NCBI RefSeq assembly: GCF_024204665.1
Contig: NZ_CP100355.1
Span: forward strand, 3,019,451-3,083,450
Reading direction: 5' to 3'
Length of the DNA: 64,000 bases
From: Natronosalvus rutilus
GTDB lineage: Archaea; Halobacteriota; Halobacteria; Halobacteriales; Natrialbaceae
Positions 22,489-33,029 of the stretch are shown piece by piece. Each line of letters begins with the position of its first letter. Position 1 is the first letter of the stretch. A program made the position numbers and the translations under genes. The notes under the pieces are model-generated. The model had not been told where the DNA came from and did no database searches. It saw only the letters and a program-made list of their open reading frames with translations.

Positions 22489-23871
22489 ATGACTGTCACA
22501 ATCGTCGGGTCGCAACTCGGCGACGAGGGCAAAGGCGGCGTCGTCGACCTCTACGGCGACGCTGCTGACGTCGTCGCTCGCTACCAGGGTGGCGACAATG
22601 CCGGCCACACCGTCGTTCACGGCGGCGAAACGTACAAACTCTCGCTGGTGCCGTCCGGCGCCGTGCGCGGCAAGACCGGCGTCCTCGGCAACGGCTGCGT
22701 CGTCAACCCTGAGACGCTGTTCGACGAACTCGATCAGCTCCGCGAGCGCGGCCTCGAGCCAGACGTTCGCGTCGCCGAGCGCGCGCACGCGATACTCCCG
22801 TATCACCGCGTGCTCGATGGCATCGAGGAGGAAGAGAAGGCCGATCTCGCCGCGGGGACGACCAAACGCGGCATCGGCCCCACCTACGAGGACAAGGCGG
22901 GCCGTCGCGGCGTCCGCATCGGCGACCTCCTGGACCCCGAGGTCCTGCGTGAGCGCCTCGAGTACGTCGTCCCTCAGAAGCGCGCGCTCGCCGAGGATGT
23001 CTTCGGCGTGACGCTCGAGGGCGAGACGGCGGACGCCTTCGACGTCGACCACCTCTTCGAGACCTACCGCGCCTACGGCGAGCGTCTCGAGGACGAGGAC
23101 ATGACCGTCGACTGCGGCACCTTCCTCCAGGAGCGCGTCGACGCGGGCGAGAACGTCCTGCTCGAAGGCGCACAGGGGACGTCGATCGACATCGACCACG
23201 GGGTCTACCCCTACGTCACGTCCTCGAACCCGACCGCAGGGGGTGCGACCGTCGGCACCGGACTGGGACCGACCGTCGTCGGCCAGGGCGAGGTCATCGG
23301 TATCGTGAAGGCCTACCTCTCCCGGGTGGGCACCGGCCCGCTGCCGACCGAACTCGGCGGCGTCGAGGGCCAGACACCCGGCTACGACGGCGACTCGAGT
23401 ACTGGAGACAGGGACGAAGAGGAACTCGCGACCTACATCCGCGACGAGGGCGGCGAGTACGGCACCGTCACCGGTCGTCCCCGCCGCGTCGGGTGGCTCG
23501 ACATCCCCATGTTGCGCCACGCCGCCCGCACGAACGGCTTCACCGGCCTCGCGGTCAACCACATCGACGTCCTCGCCGGACTCGAGGAGGTCGAGGTCGG
23601 CCACAGCTACGAGTTCGACGGCGAGGAGATCTTCACTGTCCCGCCGACGACCGAGCAGTGGGCCCGCTGTGAGGCCACCTACCGTACCTTCGACGGCTGG
23701 CCGGACGTCGACTGGGCCGCCGTCGCCGAAGAAGGCTACGAGGCCATCCCCGAGAACGCGCGGACGTACCTCGAGTACCTGTCGACGGAACTCGACGCGC
23801 CGCTTTACGCCATCGGCGTCGGTCCCGGACGCGAACAGACGGTCGTCATCGAGTCACCCTACGACGAGTAG
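22489..23871 (+). CDS. purA: Adenylosuccinate synthetase
   Basis: 460 aa. PurA uses GTP to join IMP and aspartate in the first step from IMP to AMP. The N-terminal GTP loop GSQLGDEGKGG has Leu in place of the usual Trp. It is followed by GGDNAGHTVV with the catalytic histidine. LLEGAQGTSIDIDHGVYPYVTSS, VGTGLGPT and the C-terminal IGVGPGREQT are also present. It is somewhat longer than bacterial PurA because of an acidic insertion near GDSSTGDRDEE (residue 305). It is monocistronic and convergent with the next minus-strand gene. Confidence 0.97.
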   Translation: MTVTIVGSQLGDEGKGGVVDLYGDAADVVARYQGGDNAGHTVVHGGETYKLSLVPSGAVRGKTGVLGNGCVVNPETLFDELDQLRERGLEPDVRVAERAHAILPYHRVLDGIEEEEKADLAAGTTKRGIGPTYEDKAGRRGVRIGDLLDPEVLRERLEYVVPQKRALAEDVFGVTLEGETADAFDVDHLFETYRAYGERLEDEDMTVDCGTFLQERVDAGENVLLEGAQGTSIDIDHGVYPYVTSSNPTAGGATVGTGLGPTVVGQGEVIGIVKAYLSRVGTGPLPTELGGVEGQTPGYDGDSSTGDRDEEELATYIRDEGGEYGTVTGRPRRVGWLDIPMLRHAARTNGFTGLAVNHIDVLAGLEEVEVGHSYEFDGEEIFTVPPTTEQWARCEATYRTFDGWPDVDWAAVAEEGYEAIPENARTYLEYLSTELDAPLYAIGVGPGREQTVVIESPYDE

Positions 23872-23959: not shown

Positions 23960-26347
23960 TCACGCGATCGGATAGGCGAGCAGTAGCTGTTCTTCCGGCC
24001 AGTAAAATCGGCCGTCGTAGTAGATCGGGGCTTCGGACTCTGCGAGAAAGTCGGTCACTGATCCGGGATCGACGTCGAACGAGAGTGGATTCGGTTGCAG
24101 GCGTTTTTCGTCGTCCCAGTTTGGAACCGCGTACCCACCGACCGGATCGATCGGGAACGGAACGGCCGTTACCCGGAGGGCGTCCGGCTCTCCTCGTGCG
24201 TCTCCGTCACTGGCTGTGTACTCATCACCGTCCCCAGTACTGGCTCGACGGCCGCCAGCAGTCAGCACGTAAATCAGGGTTGGCCACCAGCTAGCGACGA
24301 ACCGATAGCTGCCGTCACCGACGACGGCTCGCGGCTGAGGCTGGGACTCGATGGTGTCGGTTCTGGCCGCACACTGCGTCGCCGTGGCCAGGCTGTGACC
24401 GTACAGGAGGAGTTCGCCAACAGTAGTGTCGCTCGAGCGGTCGCCATTGTCGTCGCCATCTTTACTCGCTCCAGCGATCCCGGCGACCCCGCCAACCCCA
24501 GCGACGCTCCCGCGCTCGACGAGGTCGACGGCGAGCGATCGAGGACCGTCGATCTGAAACAGCTGGACGTTGTTCTCCGCCAGCGACGCCGGCTCGAGGA
24601 CGCCGTCACGACAGGGAATACCGGCCTCGGAGCAGTCGCCGACGACATGGAGGAAGTCCACCCCCGTCTCGAAGACGCCGGCGAGTTCCTCGCGAGAGGG
24701 GGTCTCGAGTGCCGTCACGGTCGGTGAGAGCACGTCGTCTCGTCGGCGGTAGCGATCGACGACCGATTCTCGTTCCGCGTCCGTGACTTCGTCCGTGAAC
24801 GCGACGACCACGGCCCGCTGTCGACAGTCGCGTCCGAGGTATTCGAGGCGATTGCGGTAGGCGCCGGGCATCGACGTAAACGCGGCGTCGGTTGGATCCG
24901 ACGCGGCTCCACCCGACCGGAGACGACCTCGCAACCGGGTAATCACCTCGAAATGCCGTTCATCGCTCGAGGGGGAACCGGCTGCCGATCGAGTTGTCTC
25001 GGTCGTATTCGTTGCCTTCGTTGCCTCCGTCGCATCCATCACCTCAGCCGGCTCTGTCGCCTCTGTCGCCTCTTTCGTCGTCTCCGTCGACTCCGCCACC
25101 TTCGGAAGCTCGATCGCTGCCATATCGTACAACAGATGGGGCAGCTGAGCGACCGACTCCGGCGACGGCTCGACCGTCATCCGGTACGGCCAGGCGGGAA
25201 GCGCCTCCTCGAGCGGCGGCCCTGGAAACGAGAGATAGGCCTCGAGACGCTCCGCGAGCGGCGCTTCGACGCACGGCTCGAGGTCGATTCCGGCCGACTC
25301 GAGGATGCCGTGCGCGCGAACGGTCCACTCCGAATCGTCGTACCACGTGGCGAGCATGTCGAGGAAGAAGATGCGCTTCAACAGCGCCGCCGTCTGCCCT
25401 TCGAACGCCGGGAGCGGGTCGAACTCGTGGTAGACGTCGACAGCAGGCGCACGAAGGATCGGTGCCGAGTCGTCCTGGACGCGGACGCGAGCCCCCAGAT
25501 AGTACGCCAGTGGAGCCGCCGGCAAGAGAGCCGAGAGCGAGTCCGGGATCAGGAGTTCGATGCCGGTGTCAGGCGTCGAGGCCTCGACGGCCGCTGGCAC
25601 GGTCGTCTCAGAACCGAGGCGAATCGTCGGCGGATAGCCCCGGTTGTTCCGGTGGACTCGGTCGACCGACGTCGTCGTAATGGTGGCGCCGAGGTGCGAC
25701 ACGGCCGTTGCAAACCCCGCTGTCGTGGGTTCGACGGTCAACTCGTGGCGTGGGTAGTCCACGTACGTCTTGAAACCGAAGGTGACCGTCGTGGGGTACG
25801 GGAACGATATCGTGAGGCCGGATTCCGATCGATACCTGATCGTTCCGGCCCCGTCGAACCAGAGGTGGACATTGATGCTCGATTCGACCGAACACCGGTA
25901 CTGTCCCTCGGGTAACGAGTACCGGACCGGTCGGTCGGTGCCGACGTCGTCGCGGACAGTGGCCGTCGTTTGCCCGTTCCGTTCGACCTGAAACGAGCCA
26001 TCGGACCGGGTGACTTTGAGGAAGTTCTGCAGGTCGTACCTGATCTCCGTGACTCGAGCCGTGACTGCCGCGTCGACCTGCTCGTCAATGTCGCGGTCGT
26101 CCACGGACGGGTCCCACCCGGTCAGACCAAACAAGAGATCGTTCCCTGCGATGTCGGTTACGTCGAGGGACGAACTGGCGGTGTGGAACGTGACGTCGAC
26201 GAGGTCGATGTCCGGGTTGGGGTCGACATGGTCGCCGTTCACGCCACTACCCCCGACGTCAACGTGGTAGCCTTTCGGGGAGCTCGAGTGGGTTGGACGG
26301 CTCGGACGAACCAAACGAATCGAGTGAACCGAATCACTGCTCATCAC
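23960..26347 (-). CDS. Haloarchaeal protein with CHAT/caspase-like domain, partner of the histidine kinase
   Basis: 795 aa, no signal peptide. The N-terminal 400 residues include beta-rich stretches (SINVHLWFDGAGTIRY, SGLTISFPYPTTVTFGF) and a helical part. Residues about 416-459 are a Thr/Glu/Ala-rich linker. At about residues 510-640, VVVAFTDEV, DFLHVVGDCSEAG, VQLFQIDGPRS and LVERGSVAGV line up with the strand order of CHAT (caspase-like) peptidases, but Asp-type residues stand where the catalytic His and Cys are expected. I read it as an inactive or altered member, by inference. It overlaps the kinase gene by 14 nt and is surely co-transcribed. The first Met codons at 26347 and 26344 are equally possible starts. 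Confidence 0.6.
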   Translation of the reverse strand: MMSSDSVHSIRLVRPSRPTHSSSPKGYHVDVGGSGVNGDHVDPNPDIDLVDVTFHTASSSLDVTDIAGNDLLFGLTGWDPSVDDRDIDEQVDAAVTARVTEIRYDLQNFLKVTRSDGSFQVERNGQTTATVRDDVGTDRPVRYSLPEGQYRCSVESSINVHLWFDGAGTIRYRSESGLTISFPYPTTVTFGFKTYVDYPRHELTVEPTTAGFATAVSHLGATITTTSVDRVHRNNRGYPPTIRLGSETTVPAAVEASTPDTGIELLIPDSLSALLPAAPLAYYLGARVRVQDDSAPILRAPAVDVYHEFDPLPAFEGQTAALLKRIFFLDMLATWYDDSEWTVRAHGILESAGIDLEPCVEAPLAERLEAYLSFPGPPLEEALPAWPYRMTVEPSPESVAQLPHLLYDMAAIELPKVAESTETTKEATEATEPAEVMDATEATKATNTTETTRSAAGSPSSDERHFEVITRLRGRLRSGGAASDPTDAAFTSMPGAYRNRLEYLGRDCRQRAVVVAFTDEVTDAERESVVDRYRRRDDVLSPTVTALETPSREELAGVFETGVDFLHVVGDCSEAGIPCRDGVLEPASLAENNVQLFQIDGPRSLAVDLVERGSVAGVGGVAGIAGASKDGDDNGDRSSDTTVGELLLYGHSLATATQCAARTDTIESQPQPRAVVGDGSYRFVASWWPTLIYVLTAGGRRASTGDGDEYTASDGDARGEPDALRVTAVPFPIDPVGGYAVPNWDDEKRLQPNPLSFDVDPGSVTDFLAESEAPIYYDGRFYWPEEQLLLAYPIA

Positions 26348-27998
26348 CGTTCGATTCCGTCAACGCCGACGAAACTGGTGTTTCAACCGCGGATTCGCTG
26401 GTGAGATAGACGCCCGTGAACTCGAATCGTGCCCCACCAGCCGATCCGTCAGTGCACTCGACGCTCCAGCCGTGTTCGTCGGCAATTCGCTCGACGATCG
26501 CGAGACCGAGTCCGGTACTTCCGGAGCCCGTACTGTAGCCGGAGTCGAATACGACCTCGCGTTCAGACGGCGGAATGCCCGGACCGTCGTCCTCGACTGC
26601 GAACCCGTCGTCGCACGTGCCGACTCGGACGTAGACCGCTGACTCGCCTCGAGTTCCTGGTGGACCATCACCGGATTCTGATTCGGAAAGGACCGAAGCG
26701 GTGCCCTGTTTTACGGCATCGTCGGCACGAGACTCGCGCTGATCGAGTGCCGAGCCGTGTTCCACCGAATTCCGGAACAGGTTCTCGAACAACTGGAGCA
26801 AGCGTGTCGGGTCCGCATCGACCCAGACACCGCCGTCGTCCAGTTCGAGACGGGCATCTCGAGTGTCGACGTGTTCCCAGGCCTGCTCGGCGACGGTGGA
26901 CAGTCTAACCAGTTCGAGGTTTCCCGTCTCGTCACCCTTGCGAGCGACCGCCAGCACGTCGTCGATGAGCTGTTCCATTCGGTCGTGAGCCTGCTGGATT
27001 GTGGTGACAGCGTCGTGGTCGTCGCCGAGTTCGTCCCGTACGAATCCCAGATAGCCGTTCGCGACGGTGAGGGGATTTCGGAGGTCGTGGCTGACGATGC
27101 TCGCGAACTGGTCGAGGCGCTCGTTCTGTCGCTCGAGTTCGCGTTCCCGGACTTTCAGCGCGGTGAGGTCGGTGTAGATCCGGTATCCCCGGGTCGTTTC
27201 GTCGTCCGTTGCAATCGGGACCGTTTGGCGCAAGAACGGTCGCGGTCCGGATGGCGTGTTCCTGATGACTTCGGTTTCGGTCTCTCCGTCGGGTGCGTGT
27301 TCGATCAGCGGCGTTCGAGTGGGTTCGTCGGCACCGTCACCGGGTGCCTCGAGTACGTCCGCGATCGATTCGCCGACGATCGACTCGGCGTCCCGCCCGA
27401 AGACGCGAACGAACGCGGAATTGACGCGCTCGATCCGGTAACGCTCGCCTTCGATTCGGTACTGAACGGCCGCGTCGGAAACGTTCTCGAACAGCGCGGC
27501 GAATCGATCGCGTTCGGTCTCCAGCGCCGCCTCGTATTCGACGCTGGTTCGAGCGTTGACCACGATTGCGACGAGCGTCTCGCCGATTTGTCGGTCGAGG
27601 TCGGAAAACGCGTCGGGTTCCGACGAGAACGCCTGGAATATGCCGTCGTTGGCGATGGGAACGGAGAGGACCGAGCGAAAGGAGTCACACGTCGGGGCGG
27701 CGTTGGTCTCGTCTCGGAGATCGTCGACCAGGATGGTGGCTCCGGTCGCGAGCGTTCGGCCGGCGATGCCGGCGTTCGCCGAGAGCGCCTGGCCGGGAAT
27801 TAAGTGGTTCGCGTACACTGCCCGGGGGATCAAGCGCTCGTCTCGCTGCGTGCAGATACTCGCGGCTTCGAACGACAGTACGTCCGCGGCCGCGGTCAGC
27901 GCGTGTTCGTAGACCGATTCGACGGACGTACTCGCATCGAGCGTCGTCGCAATATCGCCGAGTCGTCCGATGAATTCGACGGTCTTCGAGGCAACCAT
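26334..27998 (-). CDS. GAF-PAS sensor histidine kinase
   Basis: 554 aa, cytosolic. An N-terminal GAF domain (residues about 1-150, with SVYEHALTAAADVLSFEAASI) is followed by a PAS domain (about 165-290). The HisKA helix IVSHDLRNPLTVANGYLGF carries the phospho-acceptor near H303. The HATPase core has ENLFRNSVEHG (N box), VEDDGPGIPPSE (G1) and STGLGLAIVERIADEHGW (G2). No receiver domain or response regulator gene is nearby. I prefer the ATG at 27998 because the only TATA-like element (TTTATAT near 28064-28070) sits just 8 bp before the alternative GTG at 28058, too close for that start. The 3' end overlaps the CHAT-like gene. Confidence 0.88.
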   Translation of the reverse strand: MVASKTVEFIGRLGDIATTLDASTSVESVYEHALTAAADVLSFEAASICTQRDERLIPRAVYANHLIPGQALSANAGIAGRTLATGATILVDDLRDETNAAPTCDSFRSVLSVPIANDGIFQAFSSEPDAFSDLDRQIGETLVAIVVNARTSVEYEAALETERDRFAALFENVSDAAVQYRIEGERYRIERVNSAFVRVFGRDAESIVGESIADVLEAPGDGADEPTRTPLIEHAPDGETETEVIRNTPSGPRPFLRQTVPIATDDETTRGYRIYTDLTALKVRERELERQNERLDQFASIVSHDLRNPLTVANGYLGFVRDELGDDHDAVTTIQQAHDRMEQLIDDVLAVARKGDETGNLELVRLSTVAEQAWEHVDTRDARLELDDGGVWVDADPTRLLQLFENLFRNSVEHGSALDQRESRADDAVKQGTASVLSESESGDGPPGTRGESAVYVRVGTCDDGFAVEDDGPGIPPSEREVVFDSGYSTGSGSTGLGLAIVERIADEHGWSVECTDGSAGGARFEFTGVYLTSESAVETPVSSALTESNGDEQ

Positions 27999-31778: not shown

Positions 31779-32864
31779 TCAGAACAGATTCTCGAGTTCG
31801 TCGTTCGCGAAGGCGTCAGCCGGGTCGCCGGCCGCTTTCTCGTCCTCGACTCGCTGGGCCGCACGCGCGCGGTCGAGGAACTCCTGAATCCGGTCGGAGC
31901 GTTCGACGCCGCCCAGCAGGACCAGCGCGGCTATTCGGTCGCTATCGAGGGGGAAGTCCCCACCTCGAACCTGCATGCTCTCGGTCTCGTCCTCGAGCCA
32001 GCGCCGCGCCTTCTCGACTCCTTTGCGCGGAATCGTCTCCGGCTTCCCGGCGATGACCAGTAACGCCGCGTCGCCGACCCGAGCCTCCGGCAAACTCGTT
32101 CCGGTGAGCAACGCCTGCCTGGAGACACTCATCACGCTTCGAATGTTCTGCGTGCTGTCGTCGCTCGCCGGCGCGCTCGCGTACCCCAGCGCGGCGATTC
32201 CACCCTGGCGAAGCGTGTTGATGACCTCGCTCGAGTCGACGACGCTCTCGCCGACGCCCTCGACGGCCTCGCCCGACGCGAAGAGCAGGCCGAATCGTTG
32301 CGCGATGTTTTGATTGATCGACTCGAATCCGCTCTCGACGCTCTCACCCTGGCTGTGCCAGGCGTCGTTGTCGACGAGGATCGTCGCGTCGGCCTCGCGA
32401 ACGATTGTCTTCAGCGATCGGCCCGCGTTCGCCTGGTACAGCGACCCCTCGTTCCGCCCGGGGAGGATGCCGAGCGCGTAGACTGGAATGTCGTAGACCT
32501 GCTGAAGGTGGTGGACGAGGACCGGCGCGCCACCGCTCCCGGTGCCGCCGCCGAGACCGGCCACGACGAAGATGGCCTCGGACCTGGAGGTGACGTGGCC
32601 GTCGAGGTCGCCGAGCACCTCCTGGACGTCCGACTGCATGATCTCCGCACCGAGTTCGTTGTCGCCGCCGACGCCGTGCCCGTTCACCCGGTCGGCACCG
32701 ATCAGGTGCGTCTCGACGTGCTCGAGCGACTGGAGGTCCGGGGTCGCGGAGTTGATGGCGAACGCTCCCTGGACGGCGTCGAAGTCCATTTCAGCGTCGA
32801 ATTTCGTGAGGCGCTCGACCACCTTTCCACCGGCCTGGCCGATACCAATCAGGGCTACTTTCAT
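31779..32864 (-). CDS. cetZ: CetZ, tubulin/FtsZ-superfamily cell-shape protein
   Basis: 361 aa. The GTP-binding signature is VAGLGGGTGSGGAPVL. The N-terminal MKVALIGIGQAGGKVVERL and the NNDAW-type segment DNDAWHSQGESVESG fit the CetZ branch rather than FtsZ. CetZ proteins polymerise with GTP and control rod shape and motility in haloarchaea. The C-terminal tail ends in NDELENLF after an Ala/Asp-rich linker. I placed the start at 32864 (MKVALIGI). The longer frame is not homologous. Several paralogues are usual per genome, so which CetZ group this is remains open. Confidence 0.93.
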   Translation of the reverse strand: MKVALIGIGQAGGKVVERLTKFDAEMDFDAVQGAFAINSATPDLQSLEHVETHLIGADRVNGHGVGGDNELGAEIMQSDVQEVLGDLDGHVTSRSEAIFVVAGLGGGTGSGGAPVLVHHLQQVYDIPVYALGILPGRNEGSLYQANAGRSLKTIVREADATILVDNDAWHSQGESVESGFESINQNIAQRFGLLFASGEAVEGVGESVVDSSEVINTLRQGGIAALGYASAPASDDSTQNIRSVMSVSRQALLTGTSLPEARVGDAALLVIAGKPETIPRKGVEKARRWLEDETESMQVRGGDFPLDSDRIAALVLLGGVERSDRIQEFLDRARAAQRVEDEKAAGDPADAFANDELENLF

Positions 32865-32917
32865 ATGCAGGAATCCGAGGGAATCAAGTTGAACGTTCCG
32901 GATCATTTTCACGGTCT

Positions 32918-32924
32918 GACGTTT
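32918..32924 (+). promoter_or_regulatory. TATA-like element upstream of the pilin-like genes
   Basis: TTTATAT near 32918-32926 is the only strong AT element between cetZ and the pilin-like gene pair. It would place a transcript start near 32950 on the plus strand, about 80 nt before the likely TTG start. The orientation is uncertain. Confidence 0.35.
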
Positions 32925-33029
32925 ATATGCGATGGCGCGGCCAGAGGGGGCCATGTTCCTGTTTCCCACCGCTCGCCGGGTGGTTCGACGGGCTGCGAGG
33001 GCTCGCCTCACTCGAGTACGAGTCCACCG

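Follow-up and report, generated by a model that had tools for sequence, protein, structure and literature searches.

Conserved pairing of an orphan GAF-PAS histidine kinase with a predicted dead CHAT-family protein suggests a kinase-to-pseudoprotease signalling pair in Natrialbaceae

A CHAT protein tied to two-component-type signalling is exemplified by HetF, the cyanobacterial protein for which the domain was named, alongside PatA, a receiver protein. As a probable active protease, HetF differs from the protein described here, which is encoded in a 64,000-nucleotide stretch of the Natronosalvus rutilus genome (the window). CHAT peptidases (PF12770, clan CD), including separase, Csx29/TPR-CHAT and SAVED-CHAT, resemble the window family in fold and motif layout. 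However, the window protein is without the His and Cys, no TPR or SAVED domain was found in it, it is paired with a kinase, and it has a beta-rich, cupin-like N-terminal half and a middle domain of the alpha/beta type. A caspase-like fold that has no dyad while active paralogues persist alongside is likewise seen in FLIP(L) (PMC7586951) and in bacterial pseudo-orthocaspases (PMC6426788), but the window protein is of the CHAT type and not C14, is archaeal and is linked to a kinase. The pseudo-orthocaspase survey reports no pseudo-variants in Archaea (PMC6426788), and haloarchaea show caspase-like activity with no known caspase gene (PMC3615174). Compared with two-component systems, the window kinase has every sequence hallmark, whereas its genetic partner is a dead CHAT protein and not a receiver protein. 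CHAT proteases and pseudo-caspases are known kinds; what is new, as far as the literature searched shows, is an archaeal clade of dead CHAT proteins stably paired with a histidine kinase, as well as the breadth of the intact CHAT family in haloarchaea.

The first-pass annotation of this DNA had described an orphan GAF-PAS kinase gene overlapping a CHAT-like gene, and both open reading frames were confirmed at the coordinates and strand given there. On the minus strand of the window the kinase gene (27998-26334) is followed by the CHAT-family gene (26347-23960), both convergent to purA.

26334..27998, minus strand: soluble GAF-PAS histidine kinase, 554 aa from ATG 27998 or 574 aa from GTG 28058 (Pfam)
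27558..27929, minus strand: kinase GAF domain, residues 24-147 (PF13185, GAF_2, E 2.6e-8)
27159..27506, minus strand: kinase PAS domain, residues 165-280 (PF13188, PF08448)
26934..27116, minus strand: kinase HisKA, phospho-acceptor and dimerisation domain (PF00512, E 1.5e-14)
26415..26813, minus strand: kinase HATPase_c catalytic domain (PF02518, E 9.6e-17)
23960..26347, minus strand: predicted catalytically dead CHAT-family protein, 795-aa ORF conserved from about residue 50 (homology, alignment, model)
22489..23871, plus strand: purA, conserved convergent neighbour marking the locus type; context, outside the module (Pfam)

The annotated 14-nt overlap is true if the CHAT-like gene starts at GTG 26347; an in-frame ATG at 26344 would give an 11-nt overlap and a GTG at 26242 none. 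Residues 1-45 of the CHAT-like protein are of low complexity, vary in length between close relatives and show little constraint (dN/dS about 0.6), so the start given for it is tentative. The pairs of relatives overlap by 1-4 nt or lie tens of nt apart. The description of the two as fused by overlap had to be dropped, as kinase and CHAT-like protein are two separate genes with no fusion. The neighbours of the pair in the window are purA, which adjoins 17 of the sampled dyad-less members, and Trm112-like, DUF7524 and CbiX genes. A CetZ tubulin-like gene lies near the module (31779-33011).

The Pfam matches to GAF, PAS, HisKA and HATPase_c bear out the identity of the kinase, and the H-box, N, G1 and G2 motifs of two-component kinases are covered by its HisKA and HATPase_c matches. 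Its H-box, FASIVSHDLRNPL, recurs in close variants in 28/28 paired kinases, the SHDLRNPL box is intact, and its dN/dS is 0.20-0.26. The reported lack of a response regulator also stands, with zero PF00072 matches in the 64-kb window and the nearest receiver more than 100 kb away. Since kinases outnumber receiver domains genome-wide (51 HATPase_c versus 29 receiver matches), a lone histidine kinase is ordinary in the N. rutilus genome.

The CHAT identity of the partner came from relatives and fold, since the window protein by itself gave no profile match. It had zero matches in Pfam (E<=1), NCBIfam and PADLOC, and the family profile returned chance matches only among PDB sequences. There was no Pfam match to TPR repeats, which are common but not obligatory beside the CHAT domain, and no C14 Pfam match to the p20 profile and dyad of caspases and metacaspases, the caspase likeness being at fold level only. 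The motifs noted previously, DFLHVVGDCS, VQLFQIDGPRS and LVERGSVAGV, are present. A lack of CHAT similarity in profile searches had been set beforehand as a refuter, and we found that intact relatives do match PF12770, one at 27.3 bits (cut-off 24) and four at 18-19 bits; these matches, together with those of the fold, uphold the CHAT likeness. The AlphaFold2 model of the window protein (pLDDT 82, pTM 0.84) matched gingipain RgpB (E 7e-4) and caspase-11 with probability 1.0 in Foldseek, and the model of an intact paralogue (pLDDT 89) had its best solved matches in SAVED-CHAT filaments (E 7e-7), separase, gingipain and caspases. The model and alignments divide the window protein as follows.

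25733..26194, minus strand: N-terminal beta-rich cupin-like domain, about residues 52-205 (model; Foldseek cupin matches BgaR, EutQ)
25103..25732, minus strand: middle alpha/beta domain, about residues 206-415 (model; 414-column gingipain match)
24308..24865, minus strand: pseudo-CHAT domain, about residues 495-680 (alignment to intact HYIGHC...FFLNACGS members; caspase and gingipain fold matches)
23963..24307, minus strand: C-terminal domain with a YPIA tail at its end (model and alignment)

The middle domain, among the most conserved parts of the protein, is possibly the non-catalytic subdomain of gingipain/separase-type folds. In the C-terminal tail, Pro793 is found in 28/30 kinase-linked and 1/61 intact members, and the tail motif around it (window 23963-24000) could be a docking peptide.

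The alignment placed three altered residues at the former active site.

24635..24637, minus strand: Asp571 at the catalytic His position (H in 63/63 intact members)
24548..24550, minus strand: Asp600, two residues ahead of the Cys position (D/E in 29/30 kinase-linked members, N in 63/63 intact members)
24542..24544, minus strand: Pro602 at the catalytic Cys position (C in 63/63 intact members)

Because Asp571 and Pro602 replace the His-Cys dyad, the window protein is predicted from alignment and model to be a pseudoprotease homologue of the CHAT family, and not a CHAT protease. The absence of the Cys/His pair that had been suspected in the window protein proved common to the whole kinase-linked clade: when 91 distinct members, sampled from similarity-ranked lists, were read with their flanking DNA, 61 kept both residues, while the remaining 30 all lacked the Cys and all but one lacked the His. 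In a family tree built from the N-terminal half alone, without the CHAT columns that define the trait, the 30 dyad-less members fell on one side of a branch with an SH-aLRT of 98 (97 with more rows). Purifying selection acts on their pseudo-CHAT domain (dN/dS 0.30-0.45), though less strongly than on the N-terminal part or the kinase.

We found that every one of these 30 dyad-less clade members has a same-strand kinase of one lineage (sampled tree, kinases placed by domain coordinates). The kinase lies directly upstream in 23 and downstream within 700 nt in 5, and the other 2 belong, as outer copies, to a tandem triple in which the kinase accompanies the last copy. This triple (L043:3474-12040), three dead CHAT copies in tandem with one kinase after them, all in one genome, represents an expansion of the partner. 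By comparison, 0/61 intact members adjoin a kinase of the pair lineage: 57 lack a kinase within 4.5 kb, in 3 one lies at a greater distance, and 1 adjoins an unrelated kinase. The cognate kinase was thus found beside dead members only in this sample. Unlinked genes in relatives had likewise been named in advance as a refuter, and the genes are linked in relatives. Furthermore, kinase and partner distances are correlated (Mantel r 0.944, 0/5000 permutations; 0.843 when only pairs under 60% identity are counted), four modules in a single genome group by module and not by genome, and among their closest homologues the paired kinases fall on one side of a branch with a support of 81. Pairing and dyad loss probably go back to a single old event; the 30/30 then stands for inheritance of a pairing that has outlasted duplications, moves to other loci and reversals of gene order, and not for 30 independent cases. 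A rule that every dyad-less member has a kinase was rejected, as a separate dyad-less lineage of five members has none (L237:5080-7575, one copy; L238:4824-9637 and L239:5326-10022, two copies each; mostly tandem pairs). Loss of the dyad therefore neither requires a kinase nor by itself predicts pairing, and dead CHAT proteins can do something other than pair with one.

Collectively, the computation shows CHAT family membership at the fold level, dyad loss in a clade, conserved linkage, a shared tree and selection. The reading we prefer, with a probability of about 45%, is that of a co-inherited module in Natrialbaceae, in which a soluble orphan GAF-PAS kinase is joined by a dedicated dead CHAT-fold protein that acts non-catalytically; judged from the genes, this suggests a kinase-to-pseudoprotease signalling pair. 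The kinase would sense a cytosolic signal through its GAF and PAS domains and would bind or phosphorylate the dead protein, altering its state, after which that protein would act without cutting. Most likely it would pair with the intact CHAT paralogues present in that cell, compete against them or hold their substrates, in the way that FLIP acts on caspase-8, and by this analogy the probable role of the module is to tune intact CHAT proteases or the substrates of these. The genome of N. rutilus encodes two paralogues of the window protein, both with the HYIGHC...FFLNACGS motifs that carry the His and Cys of CHAT peptidases, and an intact copy was also present in 15/15 other kinase-linked genomes checked; regulation of active paralogues is therefore possible in all of them. 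The close linkage may, for its part, reflect co-transcription without contact. A defence role, which had also been proposed, found no backing, with no PADLOC match and housekeeping surroundings next to purA.

The dead protein might instead lie on the input side, binding a ligand through its cupin-like N-terminal domain and controlling the kinase, which would signal to a response regulator encoded elsewhere. We regard this as unlikely, though worth serious consideration. In its favour, the N-terminal half is the most constrained (dN/dS about 0.2 across residues 46-420, the middle domain included), the model of this half looks like cupins with a sensing role, BgaR for example, and the genome offers the 29 receiver matches counted above. 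However, the same half is found in intact members without a kinase and is therefore not kinase-specific, and the cupin matches, which arise from the beta-rich domain, are weak (probability about 0.5).

In contrast to an input or a non-catalytic output, the former active site itself could receive the signal, with Asp/Glu600 at the end of a central strand taking the phosphoryl group from the kinase in place of a response regulator. Among 163 core positions of the pseudo-CHAT domain, only 600 carries an acidic residue in 90% or more of linked members and in no intact one, and it is Ala or Ser in the five dead members without a kinase. Position 571 is acidic in 21/30 linked members, and the window has no receiver. 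The change from Asn to Asp/Glu specifically in the linked clade indicates that selection acted on the dead pocket; as far as alignment can tell, it may have done so for structure, metal binding or phosphoryl transfer. We nevertheless consider a phospho-acceptor improbable, since a receiver-like set of conserved Lys or Thr/Ser was not identified, haloarchaeal proteins are acid-rich, and one linked member has Pro at 600. The bolder version, that a caspase-type site was rebuilt as an acidic phospho-acceptor pocket and that the dead CHAT protein is a response regulator controlling intact CHAT proteases, is a long shot.

Alternatively, a CHAT copy might simply have decayed next to a kinase, with synteny at purA keeping the two together. 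At this locus the pair is conserved in Natronosalvus, Natrialba, Halopiger and Halovivax, all Natrialbaceae, and many other neighbours are conserved there too; in addition, changes accumulate faster in the pseudo-CHAT domain than elsewhere in the protein. The purA-type pair was found in 16/292 genomes of the class sample, in this one family only and with a wide score gap to intact members. However, the pair is also kept at unrelated loci, among them a plasmid contig of 241 kb, and with its gene order reversed, and away from purA the kinase is the sole neighbour recognised as shared. Conservation at the purA locus in four genera together with occurrence at unrelated loci indicates that the pairing is more than chance. 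Full-length ORFs, dN/dS values well below 1 and the newly fixed position 600 also speak against decay, making passive linkage a doubtful account. Finally, cutting by the dead protein with other residues is very improbable: the former active-site strand stays in place in the model, but the residue in place of the nucleophile is free to vary among linked members (P, T, A, Y, F, R, G or S), and therefore no substitute nucleophile has been fixed there.

Through this locus a CHAT family came to light that nearly every sampled haloarchaeon carries and that mostly scores under the Pfam cut-off, together with its kinase-tied dead branch. The family was found in 271/292 haloarchaeal class genomes (93%) and in 54/61 related genomes, and most of its records are annotated as hypothetical, with single ones named "CHAT domain-containing" or "caspase family protein". 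In Haloferax volcanii the Pfam CHAT model gave no match, but it also misses most of the family. Our literature search found no paper linking CHAT with haloarchaea. With PF12770 missing almost all of this haloarchaeal family, hundreds of proteins now labelled hypothetical would gain an annotation from a curated model, and a named gene set is now available for testing archaeal caspase-like activity and its control by deletion. Two intact subfamilies have recurrent neighbours. The main one (L050:5532-8808; C1:2735456-2737507 in the window's own genome; 22 sampled loci) directly precedes tbsP, a regulator of gapII and cell development in Haloferax; often a YcaO gene is present too, opposite glyA, making this a candidate conserved protease-regulator operon. 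The second (L051:5881-9659; about C1:1099181-1102959 in the own genome; 16 sampled loci) adjoins a DUF7504 gene, with a HalX-type receiver-like gene alongside in about 8 loci.
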